The notes beneath the pieces were generated by a model, which was given only the letters and a program-made list of their open reading frames with translations, had not been told where the DNA came from and made no database searches. 60,471 nucleotides of DNA, taken from the NCBI GenBank assembly GCA_949282305.1, contig CASDPB010000089.1:1-60471 (forward strand). Direction: 5' to 3'. Within the stretch, counting starts at the first letter, position 1; each line of letters opens with the position of its first letter. A program made the translations under genes and the position numbers. Source of the stretch: an uncultured Lentisphaeria bacterium. GTDB lineage: Bacteria > Verrucomicrobiota > Lentisphaeria > Victivallales > UBA1829. Positions 13,621 through 57,800 of this stretch are shown piece by piece.

Positions 13621-15342
13621 TCAGAACTGCGGAAGCGGAAACGCCTTTGTAAAGGCGCGAACCTCTTCCGCGATCTTTGCAAGAGCCGCATCATCGTCTT
13701 TCGCGGCAACGGCGCGGTCAATGAAATCGGCAATTCTGAGCATTTCCGCCTCTTTCATTCCACGGGTGGTGACAGCCGGAGTTCCGATACGGACGCCGCT
13801 GGTAATCATCGGTTTTTCGGGATCGAACGGGATCATGTTCTTGTTCAGGGTGATGCGCGCCTTGTCGCAGGCAATCTGAACCTCTTTCCCCGTCGCATGT
13901 TTCGGACGGAGATCGACGAGCATCAGATGGTTGTCCGTTCCGCCGGAGACAATGCGGAATCCCTTGTCCTTCAACGCCTGGGCGAGCACGGCGGCATTCT
14001 TTACAAGTTGCCGCTGATACTCCTTGAATTCGGGAGTCATCGCCTCCTTGAAGCAAATCGCCTTCGCGGCGATCACGTGCATGAGCGGACCGCCCTGGAG
14101 TCCGGGGAATACCTTGGAATTGATCGCCTTGATGTATTTCTCCTTGCAGAGAATCAGACCGGAACGGGGACCGCGCAGAGTTTTGTGGGTCGTGGTCGTG
14201 ACGACGTCACAATAGGGAACCGGGGAGGGATGAACTCCGGCGGCGACCAGTCCGGCGATATGCGCCATATCGACGAACAGATAGGCGTTCGCCTTGTCCG
14301 CGATCTGCCGCAGACGTGCAAAGTCGATGATTCTCGGATAGGCGGAGGCTCCGGCAAGGATCATGCGCGGCTTGCATTCCATCGCAAGGCGCTCCACTTC
14401 ATCATAATCAATCATTTCGGTTTCCGGAGAGACGCCGTAAGGAACAATGTTGAACAGTTTGCCGGAGAAGTTCATCGGATGCCCGTGGGTCAGATGACCG
14501 CCGTGGTCAAGACTCATGGCAAGAACCGTGTCTCCGGGATTGAGCAGGGCGAAGTAAACCGCCATGTTCGCCTGGCTTCCGGCATGCGGCTGGACATTCG
14601 CGGCTTCCGCGCCGAAAAGTTCGCAGGCGCGCCTGATCGCGATCTTTTCCACTTCATCGACGAACTCGCATCCGCCGTAATAGCGTCTTCCCGGATATCC
14701 TTCCGCATACTTGTTCGTCAGGACGGAACCCTGCGCGGCACGGATTGCGGTGCTGGTGAAGTTCTCGGACGCAATCAGCTCAATGCCGTCATTCTGGCGC
14801 TCCGCCTCCTTGTCGATCCATGCGGCAATCTCGGCGTCCGCGGAACGGACGGCGGCAATATCGTCATAAGTCTGGCGCTCCAGCTTCTCAAGACGGTTGA
14901 CGTGTCTCCGGTCATTGGAGAAAGGAGTGGACGCCCATGTCAGGATGATTTCCTTAATCGCCTCGAAATCAAGATAATCCGCAGGAATCACCAGGACATT
15001 GGAAGCATTGTGCTCGCGGGATGCCTTCGCCACTTTCGCGGAATAGGCGACAACCGCGCGGACATTGTGGAAACGGTTTGCATCAATCCCCATTCCGACG
15101 CCGGAACGGCAGAGCAGAATCCCGCTTGCCAGTTCGCCTTTGGAAACGGCTTTCGCCATCGGCGAGCCGAAATCCGGATAATCATCGGCGGGATCCAGTG
15201 CAAACGGACCGAAATCGACGGGTTTGAACCCGGCTTCCGCCAGAAATGCGGCAATCTGTTTCTTGAGTTCAAAACCGCCGTGATCCGACGCGAGTCCGAT
15301 TTCGCCTCTGGGATTTGTCTGCCAGTCTGTGATTTTCTGCAT
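13621..15342 (-). CDS. Fused ribose-5-phosphate isomerase B / serine hydroxymethyltransferase
   Basis: A 573-residue two-domain enzyme. Residues 10 to about 155 are a full RpiB domain: SDHGG with Asp19/20-His21, Cys78 in [15 protein letters not shown] (the family usually has CGTG), and REHNASNVL. It interconverts ribose-5-phosphate and ribulose-5-phosphate. Residues from about 158 are a complete Gly[33 protein letters not shown], and the PLP-lysine segment [14 protein letters not shown] with Lys387. It makes glycine and 5,10-methylene-THF from serine. The reading frame is continuous with a short linker and no internal stop. The order phosphatase-rpiB-glyA matches the Bacillus ywlE-ywlF-glyA region, so the fusion joins old neighbours. 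Confidence 0.92.
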
Positions 15343-20282: not shown

Positions 20283-20825
20283 ATGGACGGGGTCATTGAA
20301 TATCCCAGTTACATCGTGCTGGACATCCCCTCTCCGATGGAGGAGAAGATTCAGGCGCTGAGAAGCCGGTTCGACACGGAGCGCGCCCGGATGCCGGCGG
20401 AAATCACTCTGACGGGTTCCTGCGGGGTGGGCACGATTCTTCCCGGACAGGAAATCAGTTTCATCTGCGAGGAAATGGACCGCATTGCCGCACAGTATGC
20501 GCCGTTTGAAGCAGCCTTCGATCATGTGGAGCGCTTCCAGAACACGGACATCTATTATTTCGCATTCCGGGACACCGCCCCCTTTGCCGCACTTCACCAT
20601 GCTCTGGCAGATTCCGGAATCAGGTTCAGGCACACGGATTTTCCCTTTGTCCCTCATTGCACGCTGAAGCTCCGCCAGCATCCGACGGAACAGGAGCTGC
20701 TGGAACTCTTCTTCCTCCATGCGCCGCAGGAACCGTTCAAAATCAGCAGGATGTCACTCTATTCCCTGCCTGAGCTGACCTCCTGCATTCTGCATCATAA
20801 AGTTCCGCTGACCGGTCCGGAGTAA
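20283..20825 (+). CDS. 2H phosphoesterase-like (LigT/2'-5' RNA ligase superfamily) protein, one His motif lost
   Basis: A 180-residue protein of the size of LigT-type 2H phosphoesterases. The second catalytic H-x-T is intact as FPFVPHCTLKL (His125, Thr127). At the expected first motif the sequence reads PAEITLTGS, so the histidine is replaced by Glu40. If the alignment is right, the enzyme has lost one of its two catalytic histidines and may bind rather than cleave its ligand. GGGAG lies before the ATG, 15 bp after ruvA. Function is unknown. Confidence 0.6.
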   Translation: MDGVIEYPSYIVLDIPSPMEEKIQALRSRFDTERARMPAEITLTGSCGVGTILPGQEISFICEEMDRIAAQYAPFEAAFDHVERFQNTDIYYFAFRDTAPFAALHHALADSGIRFRHTDFPFVPHCTLKLRQHPTEQELLELFFLHAPQEPFKISRMSLYSLPELTSCILHHKVPLTGPE

Positions 20826-20829
20826 ACGT

Positions 20830-21345
20830 TCAGACTGCCTCCCATGCTTCGGAAAATTCCTTGTCGGCGAACATTTCGGCAAGCCCGGATATCTGGGAGA
20901 GGCGCAGAACCTCGTCCGGCTCCATTCCAAGTTCGCGGCTGATCCTGACGTCGCTCCAGTTGCGCCGCTTCAGTTCGATCACAATATCGCTCATTGCGGC
21001 GATCTCGTGTCTGCCGCGGGCACGATTGTGCCGGATCGTGGAGGCAATCCGGTCATTGCGGTCCGTGCGGTCCTGATTCACAATCACAATCGGGAGATAT
21101 TCCATGCCCAGTTTTTTCCCGACAAGATGCCGATGAAATCCGTCGATGACCTCATAATGATCCTCGGTGCGCCAGCAGACGATCGGCTGGGTGAAGCCGT
21201 CGGATTTGATCGACAGCTCCAGCAGCTCCATTTCAGGAGGAGCCACCGTATTCGGATTGTAATCATTCGCCTGCACCTCCGAGGCAGGCACCCAGATCAC
21301 ATGAGACACCGGGTGTTGTGCAGTCCAGCCCATATTTCCTTCCAT
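20830..21345 (-). CDS. ParB-like nuclease-domain protein (IbrB-like)
   Basis: A 171-residue protein with an N-terminal ParB/Srx-type domain: NDYNPN, FTQPIVCW and IDGFHRHLVGKKLG (68-80), the last corresponding to the GxRR-type phosphate or CTP-binding region. A helical C-terminal part with RNHRNS-like and SDVRISRELGMEPDEVLRL suggests a helix-turn-helix. It resembles E. coli IbrB, the partner of IbrA, which activates prophage-linked genes. GAGGAGGG lies five bases before the ATG. The start overlaps the 3' end of the PP-loop gene by 49 bp, so the two are coupled. It is not the chromosomal ParB: too short, and no ParA is near. Confidence 0.8.
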   Translation of the reverse strand: MEGNMGWTAQHPVSHVIWVPASEVQANDYNPNTVAPPEMELLELSIKSDGFTQPIVCWRTEDHYEVIDGFHRHLVGKKLGMEYLPIVIVNQDRTDRNDRIASTIRHNRARGRHEIAAMSDIVIELKRRNWSDVRISRELGMEPDEVLRLSQISGLAEMFADKEFSEAWEAV

Positions 21346-22535
21346 AATTCCCTCCTCTTTGCCATAAGTTTCTTATATTTTTCATAAGATCCGCTCTTCG
21401 TCTGAGAGAATGACAGACCTTTGCACCAGTAGTCATTCCTCAGCAGTGTCTTTGCAATCCGCGTCCAGCTTGGCGTCTTCCTGTCCGTGACGCTTCCCTC
21501 ATCGGGAATTCCGTCGGGATACCCCCGCGTGGAATACCATTTCAGGAAAACGCTGATCTTGTTTTCGTAATGTTCCCTTGTCCGGGGCGGCATGGAAGCC
21601 AGCAGAAGTTTGGAAAAACTTTCCCATGTATGCCCCTCCGGTTTGCTGATCTTCAGATTGCCGGTGATATTCCCGTGCTCCCTGCAGTAAAGCGCCCCCT
21701 GATTCGCGCCGTTCACGCGCGCAACGACACGGGACCATGTTTCCGGCTCGATCAGATGAAACAGCCACAGCCCCTTTTTCTGATCGTCGCCGTAAGGCTG
21801 GCAGATGCGCATCTGGTGAATTGAAAGTCCCGCCTGGTACATCCGGTCATACAGCCGGTTGTAGGGCAGTTTGTATTTGCCGAGATAAATCCAGTCGTCC
21901 TCGGTGCGCCAGTCGTAAATCGGGTAAATATTGTAAAGATTTCCGCCACACCATGTCGTCCATTTTCTGTCCCGGAAATATGAGTTCCGGTGCATTGTAA
22001 TGGCACTGAAGCGGCTCAGGCTTTCCGCCGTGCGAATGCCGACAAGACATGCCGTCAGACTGTCGCCCCCGTACCATTTCCCGAATTGCGGCACAAATTC
22101 TTCAAACTCCATTCCCTTGTGGAAAAACGGGAAATAGTTCTCATCCGAGATCGCGCACTCCGGCATCGGTCGGATCCAGTCCTTCTCACGGTCCTTGTCC
22201 CAGCAAATCCAGTGCGGCTCAAACTGGGAGACCGCATTGCGCAAATGCAGCGGCAGGCAAATCCAGAACAGTTCGATATGCTCCGCATACAGCCTGCAGC
22301 ATTCGCTGATATGATCAATCGTAAGTTTGTACTGTCCTTCCAGGTCGATGAACAGGATTCCGACTTTGCGCTTCCGCCGAATCGCCTCTTCCATTACGAG
22401 ATGCAGCATGCACGTGCTGTCCTTGCCCCCGGAAAAGCTGACATAGATTTTCGGAAAGGAATCGAAGACCCAGGCAACCCTTTCCCGGGCGGCCTCCAGG
22501 ACATTCTTTCCTATGAAACGCTTCTGTCCAGGCAT
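21297..22535 (-). CDS. PAPS-reductase-like PP-loop protein (IbrA-like, DUF3440)
   Basis: A 412-residue protein. The N-terminal adenylate-binding PP-loop FSGGKDSTCMLHL (SGGKDS 35-40) is followed by the PAPS-reductase fold (VGILFIDLEGQYKLTIDHI). The C-terminal half is rich in Trp and Cys (CLVGIRTAESLSR, YPIYDWRTEDDW) and is typical of the IbrA/DUF3440 group, not of sulfate-assimilation CysH. It probably adenylates or transfers sulfur to a nucleic-acid substrate, but the reaction is not known. It overlaps the upstream unknown gene by 25 bp and the ParB-like gene by 49 bp, so all three form one translational unit. No sulfate-assimilation genes are near. Confidence 0.82.
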   Translation of the reverse strand: MPGQKRFIGKNVLEAARERVAWVFDSFPKIYVSFSGGKDSTCMLHLVMEEAIRRKRKVGILFIDLEGQYKLTIDHISECCRLYAEHIELFWICLPLHLRNAVSQFEPHWICWDKDREKDWIRPMPECAISDENYFPFFHKGMEFEEFVPQFGKWYGGDSLTACLVGIRTAESLSRFSAITMHRNSYFRDRKWTTWCGGNLYNIYPIYDWRTEDDWIYLGKYKLPYNRLYDRMYQAGLSIHQMRICQPYGDDQKKGLWLFHLIEPETWSRVVARVNGANQGALYCREHGNITGNLKISKPEGHTWESFSKLLLASMPPRTREHYENKISVFLKWYSTRGYPDGIPDEGSVTDRKTPSWTRIAKTLLRNDYWCKGLSFSQTKSGSYEKYKKLMAKRRELWKEIWAGLHNTRCLM

Positions 22536-22903
22536 AGGTTCAATTCTTCCTCCGTCAGTTTGATCTTTTCCCCGTGTTCGGAAACCGTCAGGAAATACCG
22601 CAGATTCTCCTCCGGAGTTTTCTCCTTCACCTCATACATGCGGCCCGACTCCACCAGATAATACGCAAAGACACCCCGGTTGAAAGAGTCGGAAGCCATC
22701 GTATAGTCCACATGCGGCTGAATGAATGAACGGGCATACCTGTACTTCCGGCTCCTGCCGGTGATTTCCGCCACCCACCACGGGGAAGGTCGGGCAAAAT
22801 TCCGCCCGACCCCGGGAACAATACGGTCTGCAATCGCCATCTGAAGCCTGTCATCCTGCCAGGTCTTCCATCCGATAAGCTCAAGTCTGATTTGAGTGAA
22901 CAT
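22511..22903 (-). CDS. Small conserved-looking protein heading the IbrA/IbrB-like unit
   Basis: A 130-residue soluble protein I do not recognise. It has WWVAEITG, RYARSFIQPHVDYTMASDSFNRGVFAYYLVESGRMYE split over two predicted strands and helices, then an acidic, helical C-terminus (KTPEENLRYFLTV, KIKLTEEELNLC). There is no signal peptide or membrane segment. It overlaps the PP-loop gene by 25 bp and has a coding character like its neighbours, so it is very likely real and functionally tied to them. It may be an adaptor or substrate-recognition partner; that is inference. Confidence 0.7.
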   Translation of the reverse strand: MFTQIRLELIGWKTWQDDRLQMAIADRIVPGVGRNFARPSPWWVAEITGRSRKYRYARSFIQPHVDYTMASDSFNRGVFAYYLVESGRMYEVKEKTPEENLRYFLTVSEHGEKIKLTEEELNLCLDRSVS

Positions 22904-23417
22904 CCCTTCATAACCTCAATACCATATTCTTTCGATTCCGTGTCTCCGGCATCGCTCCGCCGCTCTTATTGACTTTATGAATTTCAGTGTTTTCAAATTT
23001 CCGCTGAGTCAACCAAACAATATTTTCCGTAAAATCCGTACAAATTAAATTCCATTGGCAGACAGAACTGCAATCTGCACTTCCGGGAAATTAAGTTTAT
23101 GATTCAATTCCGCTATTTACAATACATGGAAAGCGCTGATATTCAATAGCGGTTCGGAAAAAATCCATTCATTTCACGATCAGGGACCGCCTTGCCGCCG
23201 AAAAGAAAAAAAGCAGGATTTTCCATGAAACGGAACATCGTCGTCACGGAAACGGCAGAGAGTCATTCCGCATTGTCTCTGAACACTTTACATTGTCGTA
23301 AAACTATTGCATTCCGCCGGATTCCTGTTCCGTTCCCGGGGAGGCATCGACGTGAAAACTGTTTCCCGGCTTTCCTGCGGAAAAAACTCTATCTGCCGAA
23401 AAAATGATTGTCCCCTC
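22904..23417. other. AT-rich non-coding region between the ParB/PP-loop unit and the tat operon
   Basis: About 510 bp between divergent operons, visibly richer in A+T than the flanks. No credible gene: short frames near 23192-23407 lack any domain or ribosome site. It contains an 8-bp inverted repeat, ccgctatt (23110-23117) / aatagcgg (23145-23152), enclosing a small agcgct palindrome, which may be a regulator site. Confidence 0.5.
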
Positions 23418-23446
23418 TTGATTTTCCCGCTTTCCACATGTAAATT
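23418..23446 (+). promoter_or_regulatory. Promoter of the tat operon
   Basis: TTGATT (23418-23423), a 17-nt spacer and TAAATT (23441-23446) lie 41 bp before the preferred tatA start. The -35 context TTGATTTTCC recurs before other genes in the window. Confidence 0.55.
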
Positions 23447-23487
23447 TTCATATCCGCCGGACAAGGCGGATAGAAATGGAGCATCCT

Positions 23488-57724: not shown

Positions 57725-57800
<76 letters not shown>

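Follow-up and report, generated by a model that had tools for sequence, protein, structure and literature searches.

A phage-type, three-gene variant of the IbrAB pair in the genome of an uncultured Lentisphaeria bacterium

The three-gene locus and its setting

The window considered here is a 60,471-nucleotide stretch of DNA from an uncultured Lentisphaeria bacterium (assembly GCA_949282305.1, contig CASDPB010000089.1). Its reverse strand carries three overlapping genes, here called T, A, and B. An earlier note, made from the letters alone, had described this arrangement with overlaps of 25 and 49 bp, and our coordinates reproduce it, with all three genes on the (-) strand:

22511..22903, (-): T, 130 aa, first gene of the operon (ORF call; phrog_26647, 1.4e-9)
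21297..22535, (-): A, 412 aa, IbrA-type PP-loop/DUF3440 protein (ORF call and family matches)
20830..21345, (-): B, 171 aa, IbrB-type ParB/sulfiredoxin-fold protein (ORF call and family matches)
22511..22535, (-): T/A overlap, 25 bp, at the start of A (ORF coordinates)
21297..21345, (-): A/B overlap, 49 bp, at the start of B (ORF coordinates)
22416..22433, (-): PP-loop SGGKDS, A residues 35-40 (the SxGKDS residues are invariant across aligned A proteins)
21130..21144, (-): DGFHR motif, B residues 68-72 (DG[FY]HR in 189/190 B proteins)
21007..21039, (-): TIRHNRARGRH signature, B residues 103-113 (alignment of B proteins)
20826..20829, no strand: left junction, the 4 bp that separate the stop of a 2'-5' RNA ligase-like gene from that of B
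22904..23475, no strand: right junction, an AT-richer gap (GC 0.435) from T to tatA

Family matches bear out the naming of the pair as IbrA and IbrB. A carries the SGGKDS loop and matches PF11922 (DUF3440) at 7.2e-32, above the curated cut-off, as an IbrA-type protein does; it also matches PF01507 (5.6e-16) and phrog_2302 (2.9e-91). B matches PF02195 at 1.2e-8, again above the cut-off, and phrog_2159 at 6.2e-64; with its 49-bp overlap, it is the overlapping ParB_N partner of A.

The GC content of the trio is 0.536 versus 0.538 for the window, repeats around it are short or chance-like, and the sole Rfam match is a tRNA at 57725. Three same-genus genomes lack the trio and keep its two flanking blocks, each intact but apart from the other. 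The first block runs TIGR00282 phosphoesterase-nadC-ruvA-RNA ligase; the second runs tatA-tatC, a gene we take to be DUF362-like, and ferredoxin. In the window, these blocks are joined (20822-23475), and the trio sits at the rearrangement joint, separated from the RNA ligase gene by 4 bp, with same-genus synteny breaking at the left junction (20826..20829). The family matches of the ten flanking proteins that were scanned with NCBIfam are those of ordinary bacterial proteins, and no phage gene was recognized beside the trio. The cassette is of phage type, as the relatives described below attest, but stands among housekeeping genes. Elsewhere in the window, a single (-) strand ORF at 13621-15342 encodes an RpiB-GlyA fusion, with matches to ribose-5-phosphate isomerase B and serine hydroxymethyltransferase; similar long ORFs are visible by eye at the same-genus loci L265 and L266.

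Protein T and the slot before A

T has no match at E<=1 in Pfam, NCBIfam, or PADLOC, and its only family match is to the phage family of unknown function phrog_26647. AlphaFold models it as an alpha+beta fold (pLDDT 93). Against the PDB, sequence search gives nothing below E 0.03 and Foldseek nothing below 0.001, and the top VIA Z is 5.5; in BFVD, two matches fall below 0.001, A0A3G8F6F3 (TM 0.72) and the archaeal-virus protein A0A8B0LNJ4 (TM 0.59), neither with a function. The structure prediction and remote homology search proposed in the earlier note return a confident fold and no clear match to an unrelated housekeeping family, and a housekeeping identity for T was rejected on these searches. 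Phage_Gp111 (PF07410) is matched by 4 of 14 T proteins (best E 0.008); the T protein of the window is not among them.

As a query, the T protein of the window finds viral contig L002, Chlorobiaceae phage CV-1-33, and two Streptomyces plasmids, and IbrA and IbrB follow in all four. Five T proteins as queries yield 3 genome loci and 25 viral loci, with A directly downstream in 28/28 and B in 27/28, the remaining contig ending inside A; two of the 28, L114 and L126 (a contig from a Parcubacteria MAG and a viral contig that agree in length and map), are probably the same record. Of 47 T loci, redundant contigs counted, 45 have T overlapping the start of A. This recurrence of order and overlap makes the trio more than a chance arrangement, and the suggestion that the third gene is a real part of the module holds in a phage, in viral contigs, and in plasmids. 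T is a dedicated partner of the IbrAB pair. A pattern scan of genome contigs found 3 T loci; solitary or remote T genes could be missed by it, because its patterns were derived from IbrA-linked T proteins. One apparent solitary T (L112) proved to be a 37-residue chance match inside an apparent DNA polymerase, and a short protein linked to a helicase in Streptococcus phages, considered as a possible T relative, did not pass that test. In Streptomyces plasmid locus L222, T appears by eye to form the C-terminus of a 484-aa Cys-rich protein with CxxC repeats.

The closest parallel to the trio as a whole is in phage CV-1-33 (MT192033), where genes 6-8 share the T-A-B order and the overlaps, with A 61.6% and T 34.7% identical to their counterparts in the window. 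Unlike the window copy, this trio has RusA and ERF genes nearby, in a phage genome of 34.6 kb.

T is not the only protein to occupy its position: elsewhere, an unrelated small protein, here called U, or an SNF2-like helicase takes the slot that overlaps the start of A. Among 66 viral loci found with A, a set that includes many of the 28 T-driven loci, 15 carry T, 43 carry U, 7 carry the helicase directly before A, and 1 (L033) carries none of these. In its 43 loci, U either occupies the place of T or forms the C-terminus of B; such a fusion is present in 17 of 190 loci and links U physically to the pair. U as a query gives at least 580 confirmed matches, and among the best 80 of 580, B is present in 80 and A in 79. 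T and U were never seen together within the flanks of a locus, which mostly span 3 to 8 kb. Profile comparison finds no match between the two and rules out a single family. Their models also differ, that of U being all helix (AlphaFold, pLDDT 96.7) versus alpha+beta for T; U itself has no clear match among families and solved structures. U-type modules, such as those of Pseudomonas phage Amjad_SA and Mycobacterium phage Gaia, thus share with the window an IbrAB core plus a small protein, and in Amjad_SA, U overlaps the start of A as T does in the window. They differ from the window in the unrelated, all-helical nature of that protein and, in Gaia-type modules, in an extra cupin-ParB protein and a separate piece for the C-terminus of A. 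T is therefore one of at least two alternative partners of IbrAB. On a Parabacteroides plasmid (L268 2585-2989), the start of IbrA is overlapped by a 134-aa protein, another possible slot occupant, whose assignment as GNAT-like rests on our own profile, with no Pfam match.

Two further enzyme types recur, each in a minority of loci and never together within this locus set. In total, 14 loci, of the T, U, SNF2-helicase, and host types, contain or adjoin a GNAT-like gene. Seven stand-alone GNAT-like proteins were compared with Pfam GNAT: 5 score above the curated cut-off, that of L222 falls below it, and that of L268 gives no match. At L077 (1054-2772), an IbrA protein and, after it, a GNAT-like region that Pfam does not match share one ORF. 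An ectoine-synthase-like cupin is found in 53 loci and shares an ORF with B in 49 of these; an example is L154 3079-4029 (PF06339, 2.9e-37). In 55 loci, the C-terminal domain of A has a short gene of its own, and the cupin loci mostly have this gene after U.

Distribution and exchange of the third gene

T was not found in the relatives of its host. Of 100 relatives, as of 387 genomes from the phylum, 1 carries T, the own genome both times, and T was rejected as a feature of relatives. Any match to A occurs in 18 of the 100 relatives, mostly weak and partial. Seven strong A loci from the same family or order, own genome left out, have B in 7/7, T in 0/7, and an SNF2-like helicase in 1/7. In G057, there is a second, partial copy of A (L022), with B not seen in its short flanks. 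E. coli IbrAB/YbdNM likewise comprises a PP-loop and DUF3440 protein followed by an overlapping ParB_N protein (the ybdN/ybdM overlap is 28 bp); it differs from the window in having no adjoining third gene, with 146 bp to citR, and in belonging to another clade of the A tree. The earlier note had held that many such pairs without the third gene in close relatives would speak against the trio as a unit. In part they do: neither the same-order relatives nor E. coli K-12 join T to their pair, which makes it an alternative partner and not a universal one. T is nonetheless not unrelated to the pair, because it is found only beside IbrAB.

A tree was built from 93 A proteins, which remained after the 190 loci had been thinned at 80% identity among those sharing a label. 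On it, the slot labels are strongly clustered: T changes 3 times in 26 rows against a shuffled mean of 23.1, U changes 6 times in 45 (31.2), the U-B fusion changes once, and all labels together change 9 times against a shuffled mean of 42.5, on a tree in which many branches are weak (41/90 open). The slot has therefore been exchanged a few times and not constantly. The window A groups with T-linked phage proteins, the nearest being that of L026 at 69% identity, and the order-level relatives' pairs and E. coli YbdN form a separate clade without T.

Predicted chemistry and competing explanations

PF01507 and the database name 'phosphoadenosine phosphosulfate reductase' would make A a CysH-type auxiliary metabolic gene for sulfate assimilation. 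We consider this barely credible. The active site of CysH PAPS reductase is a motif of the ECG[LI]H type, and the pattern ECG[LIMV]H occurs in 0 of 190 A proteins, that of the window included. CysH models (NCBIfam) score 44.8 bits on A versus a curated cut-off of 254.2, and none of the ten flanking proteins scanned with NCBIfam has a sulfate-assimilation gene as its best match, in agreement with the earlier remark that no sulfate genes lie nearby. The ATP loop, in contrast, is kept: S-x-G-K-D-S is conserved at 100% in aligned A proteins, and two acidic residues (D60 and E62, trimmed numbering) vary little or not at all, as do many Arg, Trp, and Tyr positions. No Cys is invariant. The best column, C367 (trimmed numbering), holds Cys in 165 of 185 proteins counted, so a sulfur role is possible for a subset.

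In the B proteins, DG[FY]HR and TIRHNRARGxH are invariant or nearly so, and the nearest solved relatives by sequence are Noc and ParB, with weaker likeness to SbnI and free serine kinase. Because the loop of A is intact, A lacks an invariant Cys, and B has these motifs and structural neighbors, we infer that A belongs to the AMP-forming (N-type) ATP pyrophosphatases and adenylates a substrate, rather than being a sulfonucleotide reductase, and that B is its NTP-binding partner of the ParB/sulfiredoxin fold. The same argument, from a missing cysteine to substrate AMPylation, is made in a study of type IV-B CRISPR CasCysH (PMC8175902). At the superfamily level, that protein shares with A a CysH-like fold in which the PP-loop is kept and the catalytic cysteine lost; unlike CasCysH, the window A is not part of a Cas complex.

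Much the same residues bear on DNA phosphorothioation of the Dnd/Ssp type, which the earlier note had raised. A does weakly match DndC (7e-8 in NCBIfam, 4.6e-9 in PADLOC), and both systems have a ParB-fold partner. As described in PMC10853773 and PMC12839542, Dnd (DndC/DndB) and Dpd (DpdB) pair a PP-loop or base-inserting enzyme with a ParB-fold NTPase, and DpdB is a ParB-like ATPase that works in deazaguanine DNA insertion (PMC12839542). The DndC score, however, lies far under its curated cut-off (31.8 versus 290.4 bits, NCBIfam), and no cysteine desulfurase is found among the three genes and the ten flanking proteins scanned. Among the genes examined, the trio also differs from Dnd and Dpd in lacking DndD, DndE, invariant cysteines, and a TGT enzyme. 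Since A has no invariant Cys and the scanned flanks have no sulfate-assimilation gene, this is a less supported part of the earlier note, and we hold phosphorothioation to be very improbable.

A third gene of two unrelated kinds suggests a multi-part machine for chemical modification rather than a sulfur enzyme. Our tentative reading, which we would call a serious contender but not yet a probable one, is that T-A-B was acquired horizontally and represents a phage-type form of IbrAB with three subunits, the third of them interchangeable, which carries out an AMP-forming modification, probably on nucleic acid. A would adenylate the substrate without sulfonucleotide reduction, and B would serve as the NTP-binding partner within the module. 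T, like U, would act as a small adaptor or binding subunit and bring the substrate, most likely nucleic acid, to A, and the GNAT or ectoine-synthase-like cupin enzymes of some modules would tailor the added group. In phages, the modification would mark or protect phage DNA or RNA; the copy in this bacterium would be domesticated or stranded.

Modification, regulation, and defence are all possible functions for the module. A three-part transcription regulator, in which B binds DNA and A and T modulate B, would fit phage records that carry the note 'co-activator of prophage gene expression IbrA/IbrB'. IbrAB is also said to activate the prophage-linked eib genes in E. coli ECOR-9, a role for E. 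coli IbrAB that Sandt et al. 2002 reportedly described. A pure regulator would, on the other hand, need neither the invariant enzyme loop of A nor the joined GNAT and ectoine-synthase-like domains, and we regard regulation as unlikely. An anti-phage module borne by the host, or a counter-defence module borne by phages, with the modification as a self or camouflage mark, seems to us about equally doubtful. Most relatives of the trio sit in viral contigs, and the Streptomyces plasmid copies (L222 3879-5333; L223 4806-5333) adjoin type I-E cas genes; yet the trio has no recognized nuclease or effector, its PADLOC matches are weak ones to DndC, BrxP, and MTase only, and the window copy lies among housekeeping genes.

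A bolder extension of the modification reading, and an improbable one in our judgment, makes IbrAB modules a large unrecognized class of phage systems for nucleic-acid hypermodification. A would adenylate a base or end group, to which an amine or amino acid would then be attached; an EctA-like GNAT would acetylate, or an EctC-like cupin cyclise, the attached group as in ectoine synthesis, with T and U as interchangeable substrate-recognition subunits. If so, many phage 'PAPS reductase' auxiliary metabolic genes would belong to this class. In one study, 167 phage cysH genes are reported as assimilatory (PMC10914622), and IbrA-like genes are often labelled as PAPS reductase or phage sulfur genes; our results advise caution with a sulfate-assimilation reading of them.

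The IbrAB pair is already known and unexplained, and T-A-B appears to be an undescribed variant of it. The accessible portions of the open full-text literature on IbrA/IbrB-like genes (further papers are PMC10434257, PMC4541368, PMC10763512, PMC9068703, PMC12783734, and PMC11437467) hold annotations and hypotheses and no description of T, U, or the slot, in line with the expectation that the three-gene form was new. A third subunit that is both dedicated and swappable, together with tailoring enzymes that recur, offers concrete parts for asking what IbrAB makes. The genes concerned are common: IbrA-like genes are found in 588 of 72,556 plasmids and 143 of 50,697 phage records, and 5371 of 5426 E. 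coli genomes have a match to ybdN. The ATP loop of many A proteins linked to U (for example, L048, L073, and L093) reads SAGKDS in place of SGGKDS.
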